Below, one piece after another: positions 33,601 to 54,460 of a stretch of 64,000 bases of DNA (the stretch's first letter is position 1; each line of letters begins with the position of its first letter). The notes below the pieces were generated by a model, which had not been told where the DNA came from, searched no databases, and saw nothing but the letters and a program-made list of their open reading frames with translations. Source of the stretch: Mugil cephalus. Taxonomy: Eukaryota; Chordata; Actinopteri; Mugiliformes; Mugilidae. The DNA lies in contig NC_061781.1 in assembly GCF_022458985.1 (NCBI RefSeq), positions 17,949,001 through 18,013,000 on the forward strand, in the 5' to 3' direction. Both the position numbers and the translations under genes were made by a program.

Positions 33601-36600
33601 GTTAAAATTTAAGTAGGATGAGAACCTAAAAGATTGTGAACCTATCCACCAAATAGCAAGCAAGCAGTGTTCAATAATTATTTAAATTTTAAACGGCTTG
33701 TTTAATCCTGAACAATCCTCAACGTAACATTTAACTTTTAAACTTTTTTGTACATATATAGGTTTGGCTTACATGTTAATCCCTCTGTTTAAATAAAAAT
33801 CCACTTACATAGCTTCATGGAAAACTACAAAGTCTCAAATTTAGGTTTTTTGTTGTATAGATAAAAGTGTGTTAGCTAACATGTTAGCACTCTGCTATCT
33901 TTCTAGTAAACTGGGCGCTGCTTACTCTATGTACATATGTAAATATAAACTCTGTTTCCTTCATATCATCATTCGGACAAATTATATTTGAATACATTAG
34001 CTTATGGGTTAACTATAAGAGATTAAAGTCACAAGATAAACAATGCTAGTTGTTCCCCTGTATTTTCAGCTAAGCTAAGCTAATAAGCAACTGTATTTAC
34101 ATTCACTAGAGAGCATATTTACATAATGTTTACTTATTCTTACTGAATAAACTTTTGGTTTTAGACATTTCAGTTTCTGTTTACTTGAAAATATTGCTTC
34201 ATAGTTTATTGGGGCCAAGAATAATTTTTTGAGTGTGGTGTCTAAAAATTATTTTCTCTAAATTTCACTTTGAAAACACAACCTGAGGAAATGTCCAATT
34301 AGTAAAGTAGAGGCTTTTACACACTTTCTAATTCCAACTTTTAAGCAGTAACATAGAAAATCTCAAAAGACTGTTTACTAACACGCAGCCCGTCTTGTTA
34401 TTCTCACAAGTTTAAGCCCCCCCACCACCCCCCCCCTCTCTGAACAGTTTATAATCGTATTAGTGCTCAGCAGAGGAAGGCTGTATGAATGAGCGAGCAG
34501 ACTCATTTGAGCCTTGAGCCACTCGTAACGTAAGGTTAGAAGAAATATTTTGAGTCACTATCAGCTAACTGGTGCAAGAGTCAGCCTGGTCCTGCCCCTT
34601 TTTTTCCATGTCTCTCTCTTCACGTCTACACCAGGAGCCGTCAAAGTGCTTCAGTCTCGACTGAAAAGCCACATTGCCATGGTAACAGCTTAGGGAGACG
34701 GGTGGACTACAACTGTGTCCACACTAAGTGGGCTTCAAGTTCACAGTATAGACGCCGACTCTGTGACCTTTAGCACTGAAATATTAGCTGCTTGGTGCAA
34801 CTTTGGAAGCCTCGTATAATCATTAATCAACAACAAACACTCCCCAGTGAACAAATATAACGCACACAAACATGCACTGAAGATATGATCCCAGCCTTTC
34901 CAGTAGCTGACATAGTATCTAACAGACTGAAGACCAGCCAAGTCCTACTCAGGCCTCTGAAGTGTGCGGCCGGCTTAACAATAGAGTCTGTCATGGGGGA
35001 TCGGGGCCGTGCAAAGAGGCAAACGCTATCTGGCCGTCGCCATGGAAGCAGTTGTTTTGGTCACTTAGTAACACAGCCCAATAAAAAGAGACCATTTATA
35101 AAACCTTTAAGAGCAAGAAATCTCACTGAGATTATAATGGTTAAAGCAAACAAGCATAAAAATGAAGCCAGTGTATGCATACCGAGCACCAGTAACTCCA
35201 GCTGGGCCTCGTTCTTCCCCTCCAGATCGTCAGCAATGACAACTTTACAGAAGTACACGCCACTGTCGCCCCACTGCAGCTCCCCGATACGCAGGTCTGC
35301 TTCTGCACAGAGACGACAAGCAAGGTTAGATTTATATGTGGATGTCGTTGACACTGAAATAATGTGTCATTTATACTGCTCTCAGGTGGTGCACAGCATA
35401 TGTTTTTGTGTTTTCTGCTACATCTGTTCATGCATATTGTCCCTGTATTCAACCTAGACATGCTCAAACCTGGGTTGTGTGTTTTACCTTATGAACACAT
35501 TATATATCTTCAAATTGTCTAATTGAGAACGTCTGTGGTAATTCAAGTCCTGTCGACCCTATTGTGAACATAACATTTATGTTGTCTGCAAATGTGTGTG
35601 TTTTCTGCTTCCTACCTCAGTGCATTTATATGCGCCTGGTTACACATAGAGAAGAGCAGCAATTCTTTGTGTATAAACAATGAATCAAATATCAAGTGAT
35701 GTTCAAAGGAAGATTGATTACTAGACTTATTGTTTCATTTCATATTCTAAAGTGCGAGGCAAAAATGAAAAATTTCCGTATGCAGGCTAGAAGAAATTTT
35801 CAAACGTAAAGTAAGCCGTCATTGAGTATGTTTATGTGAAAAAAAAAAAATGCCTTAATCCGACTTTAACTGGACAGTCTAACTAAAATCTGAGTTCTCC
35901 TTATCTGATTAAGACGCCCAGATAATGCAACTGGAAATCGACTTTCTCCAGCATGTATATCCACTATATCCATAACCACTGCGTGGGCGTATGACCCCTG
36001 AACAAAAACATCCAAGAAAGTCGGTCGCAGAAGAAGAAGATGGTAAGTAGAGCCGGTAGAAGAACCGTCTGAGGGATAGTGCACATCCTATCTGCACCAT
36101 AAGTAGCTCATCACGCACATTACATATGAGATTAAAAAAGCTGAAGTATTATCCATCTGCTTGTAGTTTAAAATGCCAGTGTTCATACGGTAGGTACTAG
36201 ATCTGCTTGCCCCAAATATCCGGCGCTTCCAGATGACGTCACTATATGTTCGCCCTGCATGTTCGGCTTCATTTGGTTGCGAGATCGGTTCGTGGTTAGT
36301 TTTGCACAAAACACAAAAGCTACGACGATAGCAAATTATTCATAAAAATAATAACATGTCAAAATAGTTCGAGTTCAATCCATTTATTTCTATAGTAATA
36401 AGTTTCTATCCTGAAAAATATCACATAAAAATGCAGCTTTAATCAATGTTTCCAAAGAATAAAAGGACAAAACAAAACCGATAAGTTGCTCTGTCGCGAT
36501 AACAACCGCTAACTGCTAGCTTCTCTTCTGCTTCCGCTTCTTCCTGTTGTCCAACCAATGAAAACACGCAACGTCAACGTCCCCTATGTCGTGACATCAT

Positions 36601-53577: not shown

Positions 53578-54460
53578 GCACTACCTGTATCCCCTTTTAC
53601 AATGTGCAGAAACAGTCCGGCTGGTTTTAACCACATGTTTATATGTCTTCTGGCTGTATAGTATGTTGCTATTATCCATATTTTTCTTGTATCTCTATTC
53701 AGCTCTTCTTCCATTTGTCCAAAGATGCATATGTGGCCAATAAGGACTCAATTAAAATGATAATGGTATTAAACCGTAGCGTTACAACGGCTGACTTAAG
53801 GCCCCACCACAAAGATCAAAGCTGCATCTTCAGGTTGTATTTCAAGCTTCACTTGTCACAGCGCAGCCATCTTGGCGGTTCCCTGCCAAATTTGCAATTA
53901 ATCAAATTTCCCAGACCAAGTACCATGCAAAGAAAGGCCGACGTCCCCAGAGCTCCGTTAACTGGTTGGTAATCAAGCCCTGCAGTTGTTTAATCAACCA
54001 TATTAAATACCACGTCTGCATTCATTTGAAAACACCGTGTTAGATTACTTTGTAAGAATACTTTAACAAAAATGAAAAGAGTCTGTGTTTACTTTGACAT
54101 GACCTGATTAAACAAGCCACTTGGGTTTATAAAACACCAGCTGTAAGGAGGTTTTTACAGCTGCTTTTTAAGTGTATTTATGTATTTGTCTTGTGGAGCA
54201 TCTGCTACTGGACTCTTATCTGCTGCATTCGTATTTGAAAGGCATATGATTTGCTCTTTCGGTTTGTAAGACAATAAAGTAGCAGGAATTTGCAGCAAAG
54301 GGGCCAAACCCCTCCTAACCAACTTTACACATTTAAACAGCACAGTTTGAATCAGGGAAGACGATATTATCTTGGCATATGCTCTGCCCATGTAATAAGC
54401 AGGAAGTGGCTGGTACATAAGGAACATAACTCTTCATAAGAGAAGTGAGATTATCTTTCT

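Follow-up and report, generated by a model that had tools for sequence, protein, structure and literature searches.

A probable 10-kb tandem duplication at the gpa33-ildr2 locus of Mugil cephalus and the reciprocal decay of its two units

The window analysed in this study is a 64-kb stretch of the Mugil cephalus genome, located at C12:17949001-18013000 of the assembly, and it contains several immunoglobulin-type genes on the minus strand. The angulin gene beside gpa33 is one that we take to be ildr2, based on sequence likeness and its neighbourhood. A second angulin-like gene (13325-19117) lies downstream of ildr2 on the same strand; it is presumably ildr1-like, judging from sequence and position, and the A copy of ildr2 matches it weakly. 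On the other side of gpa33, the start found from 55445 onward on the plus strand (MADGGAASQDESSGP) seems to resemble the start of POU2F1, and we assume the name pou2f1 from this likeness and from position. Malic enzyme exons were detected by Pfam on the minus strand at 166-5543, and a search of the window against Rfam, with gathering scores as the threshold, gave no match. The name gpa33 is that of the original prediction, and the spot beside ildr2 agrees with a cattle study, which lists GPA33, POU2F1 and ILDR2 in one QTL interval (PMC6471778). The fish locus is similar in that gpa33, ildr2 and the pou2f1-like start adjoin. It differs from the mammalian arrangement by the duplication of gpa33 and by the ildr1-like gene downstream of ildr2.

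Self-BLAST of the window, a comparison that had been proposed for positions 35000-55000, showed that the segments 35274-45190 and 45191-54460 match each other in direct orientation, in four collinear blocks with identities of 91.8-96.8% (gaps counted). We name the first of these segments unit A (9917 bp) and the second unit B (9270 bp); they lie head to tail, with unique flanks. Unit A holds ildr2-A exons 1 to 3, of which exon 3 runs beyond the left border, and a damaged gpa33-A, while unit B holds an ildr2-B remnant and an intact gpa33-B. The tandem duplication of ~9.9 kb in the original prediction is therefore real as direct copies, but that size fits unit A only. The end of unit B lies ~1 kb before the start codon at 55445. 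The borders at 35274/45191 and 45190/54460 are sharp, so that the junction could be read to the base as had been claimed, with TTATCTTTCT followed directly by CTGCAGCTCC at 45181-45200 and no inserted base seen. To the left of 35274 and 45191 the sequences have no base in common, and to the right of 45190 and 54460 (CTGCAG and CGGGTC) they share one base (C), in agreement with the predicted maximum of one. A 601-bp probe across the join had three matches in the genome (634.8 Mb, 24-contig assembly), namely its own site and the two expected half-sites. Between the copies, 202 of 6198 gap-free aligned positions (3.3%) are different and 21 small gap events occur, and four large differences interrupt their collinearity.

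The gpa33-B gene (48531-51777, minus strand) is intact and encodes a predicted protein of 497 aa. It has seven exons (51777-51726, 51446-51280, 50576-50363, 50226-50062, 49926-49810, 49423-49306 and 49191-48531) with GT-AG borders, and the frame is open throughout. Pfam detected a V-set and a second Ig domain, and in the gene model these domains are followed by a single hydrophobic, transmembrane stretch, then by CCCRRK and finally by a charged tail. Two Ig domains, one of them of V-set type, together with a single membrane-spanning stretch and a cytoplasmic tail, are the layout of CTX-type Ig proteins. Among solved structures, coxsackie-adenovirus receptor and CD276 chains align across both Ig domains, and the lowest E-values were given by Fc receptor-like 5 and Roundabout chains, which cover part of the protein only. 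The tail of gpa33-B contains a 42-bp minisatellite (48562-48962, minus strand) that is translated as a 14-aa repeat (RDRYGGSRDRLDDQ). Pairwise differences among its seven full-length units amount to 58 synonymous and 30 non-synonymous changes, and these raw counts lean towards selection on the protein.

The gpa33-A gene (41656-44384, minus strand) retains exons at 44384-44333, 44042-43876, 43176-42963, 42826-42662, 42526-42410 and 42018-41901, and the seventh (from 41786) is shortened by a deletion. The splice donor of exon 6 (41899-41900, minus strand) is broken; it reads ATAAGT instead of the GTAAGT of gpa33-B, so that read-through would stop at once (..KHPKK, then stop). In addition, a deletion of ~1.03 kb, with its scar at 41682-41691, removed the repeat tail (~48075-49104 in B) and fused the last exon to DNA lying past the stop codon in B, and most of the tail exon is thus missing from gpa33-A. 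The ends of this segment in B carry an imperfect 10-bp match (GTGTTTAGGT and GTGTTTTGGT). Over exons 1 to 6, dN and dS between the copies are both 0.026, calculated from only 16 non-synonymous and 5 synonymous changes. The exons are no less diverged than the introns (Fisher p 0.49; the test took an exon count of 22/832, and the codon-trimmed count is 21/831). These two observations are as expected if at least one gpa33 copy is free of constraint.

The A copy of ildr2 is open across six modelled exons, each with a GT donor, and its C-terminal exons were seen as open frames near 27.6-25.8 kb, outside the six-exon model. Exon 1 (40968-41007) carries the start codon and a signal-peptide-like start and ends in phase 1; exon 2 (37320-37619) and exon 3 (35183-35302) encode the first and second parts of the Ig V domain, all on the minus strand. 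The angulin frames given singly to Pfam had no match, but the spliced model matched LSR (E 2e-21) and V-set (E 2e-8), the domain set of angulins (LSR/ILDR). The left breakpoint at 35274 is inside exon 3, as predicted for an angulin Ig exon, and 29 nt of this exon are left in unit B (45191-45219, minus strand) with an acceptor and no donor. No GTRAG word was found after this remnant in the 835 nt scanned. Exon 1 of ildr2-B (47376-47415, minus strand) is identical to that of A, with its donor (CAG/GTGAGT) kept. It was also predicted that gpa33 and the angulin promoter had been copied together, which agreed with our finding of gpa33-B and the ildr2-B promoter and exon 1 in unit B. Thus, ildr2-B retains the promoter and exon 1, exon 2 is deleted, and exon 3 is truncated by the join. 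The genome has no second near-identical place for ildr2 exon 2; the next match, at 64%, is the paralogue on C3.

The loss of ildr2 exon 2 from unit B corresponds to a 3.5-kb deletion (A 36492-40000) with its scar at 46406-46407. The left end of this deletion sits in the loop of a foldback element (35839-37011) with long imperfect inverted arms, of which B retains the left part and a 28-bp loop piece (to 46406). The right part of the element has many relatives in the genome (5693 first-look candidates for its probe, 40 scored). A second deletion in B, of ~30 bp, is near 46378. Another large difference is located at the TAGA microsatellite region of A (44720-44811), whose place in B is taken by ~1.96 kb (52126-54081) that includes a separate TAGA array. 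The segments flanking this array and missing from A are ~100 bp (52126-52222) and ~1.74 kb (52337 to 54081) long. Among the 40 of 364 candidates scored, a 1741-bp probe had no match elsewhere beyond an inner stretch of ~160 bp, which makes a deletion from A more probable than an insertion into B. For the same reason, a transposable element insertion is an unlikely source of the additional 1.74 kb.

Regarding the origin of the join, the original prediction favoured end joining or microhomology-mediated repair over recombination between long repeats. The latter part of this view stands, as there is no long homology at the breakpoints (0 and 1 bp in common). On the other hand, a random join has a chance of 0.44 of sharing at least one base, and the single base at this join does not exceed chance; one base is no evidence for microhomology, and such repair is not favoured over plain end joining. 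Unequal recombination between repeats already present at both ends has been considered, since a foldback repeat family is close by. The borders themselves offer nothing for it, however; the two sides have 0 and 1 bp in common and the flanks are dissimilar, which makes this origin unsupported and extremely improbable. We suggest instead that two germline breaks, one in ildr2 exon 3 at 35274 and the other at the 54460 site upstream of gpa33, were connected with no usable homology, either by end joining or by template switching, two routes that cannot be told apart. The new unit at birth would have contained all of gpa33 again, together with another ildr2 promoter, ildr2 exons 1 and 2 and a piece of exon 3.

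The genome also harbors a paralogous block on C3, in which gpa33 exons occupy ~23821.3-23824.8 kb, ildr2 exons begin at 23830.0 kb and the part of the gene with the LSR domain is matched once more at 23848.6 kb. It consists of a single gpa33-ildr2 set with unchanged gene order, all on one strand, as would be expected of a whole-genome-duplication partner. The gpa33 tail on C3 is long and charged, with a 7-aa repeat unlike that of B. It suggests that such a tail is probably ancestral and that the truncated tail of gpa33-A is probably derived. Both gpa33 paralogues end with charged coding minisatellites, of 14 aa at 48562-48962 and of 7 aa on C3 (locus L040, ~4.8-5.3 kb), which suggests that a single ancestral charged tail acquired its repeats, or had them replaced, independently in the two paralogues. 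As an outgroup, C3 polarises 10 of the 15 amino-acid differences between the gpa33 copies, 6 being derived in A and 4 in B, and leaves 5 without direction; with counts of 6 and 4, relaxation of A alone is not shown. In the alignment, the N-glycosylation motifs N208 and N231 and cysteine 269 are found in gpa33-B and C3 and are absent from gpa33-A, and the motifs N151 and N188 are found in gpa33-A and are absent from gpa33-B. These differences are not decisive as a sign of relaxation of gpa33-A.

Retained haplotypes are known to produce tandem copies in assemblies, and two diverged haplotypes of one locus set end to end would appear as a false duplication. The window contains no N bases, however, and comes from a 24-contig assembly. 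The divergence of 3.3% overall, and of 5.4% outside the core described below, is far above the usual heterozygosity of fish. Moreover, each haplotype would carry one broken gene, since ildr2 exon 2 would be missing from one and the tail of gpa33 from the other, and the join in the middle of an exon without the left flank requires an extra chimeric cut. Taken together, the divergence and the complementary deletions argue against unmerged haplotypes, which we regard as improbable and as the main open risk to the duplication reading. We consider it highly probable that the locus underwent a tandem duplication of ~10 kb followed by reciprocal decay of the two units. After the duplication, redundancy was probably stripped in opposite units by deletions and one point mutation. 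Exon 2 of ildr2 would have gone from unit B; in unit A, gpa33 would have been deprived of its exon-6 donor, the greater part of its tail exon and ~2 kb upstream. Since the losses fell in opposite units, each unit is left with one surviving gene, gpa33 in B and ildr2 in A, and these two are presumably the functional genes.

The divergence between the units is uneven. In the non-coding part of a core (A 40221-44138), 54 of 2970 positions differ (~1.8%), compared with 121 of 2239 outside (~5.4%). The core segment gave a likelihood gain of 25.2, whereas the highest value among 200 shuffles was 13.2; the shuffles were searched in steps of 40 positions, coarser than the 10 used for the real data. 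The dispersion of non-coding differences was not reached in any of 2000 shuffles, with the leftmost block in or out. The Fisher p for core versus outside was 1.6e-12, a value that does not allow for the choice of the segment. Low-divergence tracts of this kind within a duplicated pair are as expected of gene conversion, and the uneven non-coding divergence suggests it. It is also conceivable, with a clearly lower probability, that the copies diverged without exchange and that the core mutates more slowly or is constrained. Genes and promoters are in the core, a repeat element is in one edge, and mutation rate may partly explain the uneven divergence. However, the contrast persists once CpG sites are removed, and the edge intron sequence outside the element still shows 29 differences in 536 positions. 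The gpa33 introns (38/1749) are not beyond chance above the promoter stretch (8/657; Fisher p 0.14), and constraint on the ildr2 promoter in B is thus not shown. We therefore favour interlocus gene conversion in the core as the likeliest reading, with reasonable though limited confidence. It would have acted after the duplication, probably homogenising the stretch at ~40.2-44.1 kb in A and its counterpart at ~46.6-51.5 kb in B.

If the core was homogenised by conversion, the outer parts give the age of the duplication. At assumed substitution rates of 3e-9 to 1e-8 per site and year, the outer divergence of 5.4% would make the duplication some 3 to 9 million years old.

The arrangement of the units raised the question of a chimeric gene, in which the ildr2-B promoter and exon 1 would be spliced to gpa33-A exon 2 onward. 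The first exons of ildr2 and gpa33 both end in phase 1, so that a splice from ildr2-B exon 1 (47415-47376) to gpa33-A exon 2 (44042) would be in frame. In addition, ildr2 exon 2 is lost from B, and the exon 3 remnant is followed by no GTRAG word in the 835 nt scanned. With the exon-6 donor (41900) lost, the product would be a membrane-anchored A33 with almost no cytoplasmic tail under ildr2 control. On the other hand, phase 1 is common for such exons, so that the phase match is weak evidence. Seven AATAAA/ATTAAA words lie in between, and gpa33-A still has a first exon of its own, with ~0.8 kb of DNA upstream of it. We judge from these features that the chimeric gene is doubtful, at roughly one chance in ten or little better, and a membrane-anchored product of this form stands at the lower end of that estimate. 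Conversion and gene fusion can each be tested directly, through the uneven divergence and the in-phase exon, respectively.

This kind of event is already known, and the locus is a clear, well resolved but fairly ordinary case of a decaying duplication, here of two adjacent genes for cell-surface proteins. Known tandem segmental duplications with an end-joined breakpoint are alike in the head-to-tail copies, the homology-free join, the partial gene at the end and the later damage to one copy of each gene. The present case differs from them in that the losses fell in opposite units and the low-divergence core suggests conversion. What is new is that the copies are no longer equivalent: there is damage to gpa33-A, B has no angulin exon 2 left, and divergence is uneven along the units. 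The locus thus offers a base-resolved case of a homology-free tandem duplication that would then have been pared in opposite units, moving the surviving genes apart. In our literature search, which covered titles and the starts of abstracts, nothing on this duplication was found among the matches listed.

Structural changes of gpa33 have been reported in two other fish groups. In Nile tilapia, its copy number is reported to differ between sexes by qPCR (PMC4176596), and a study on the scale-eating pupfish describes a fixed 1,256-bp deletion spanning exon 5 (PMC7826174). Compared with these variants, the present case is a base-resolved tandem duplication with one copy that lacks most of the tail exon and a splice donor. 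It suggests that the locus may merit comparison across fish. The gpa33 locus may have been altered repeatedly in fish, which three cases do not establish.

Outside the duplication, an ildr2-A intron contains a complete Tc1/Sleeping-Beauty-like transposon (30981-32587) with an open transposase frame of 339 aa. Its inverted ends of 206 bp are 99.5% alike, and TA is present at both ends. The best 40 of 983 first-look candidates in the genome, its own site included, were full-length with 99-100% identity, and the others may be more diverged. This similarity points to a very recent burst of the element, which is perhaps still active.
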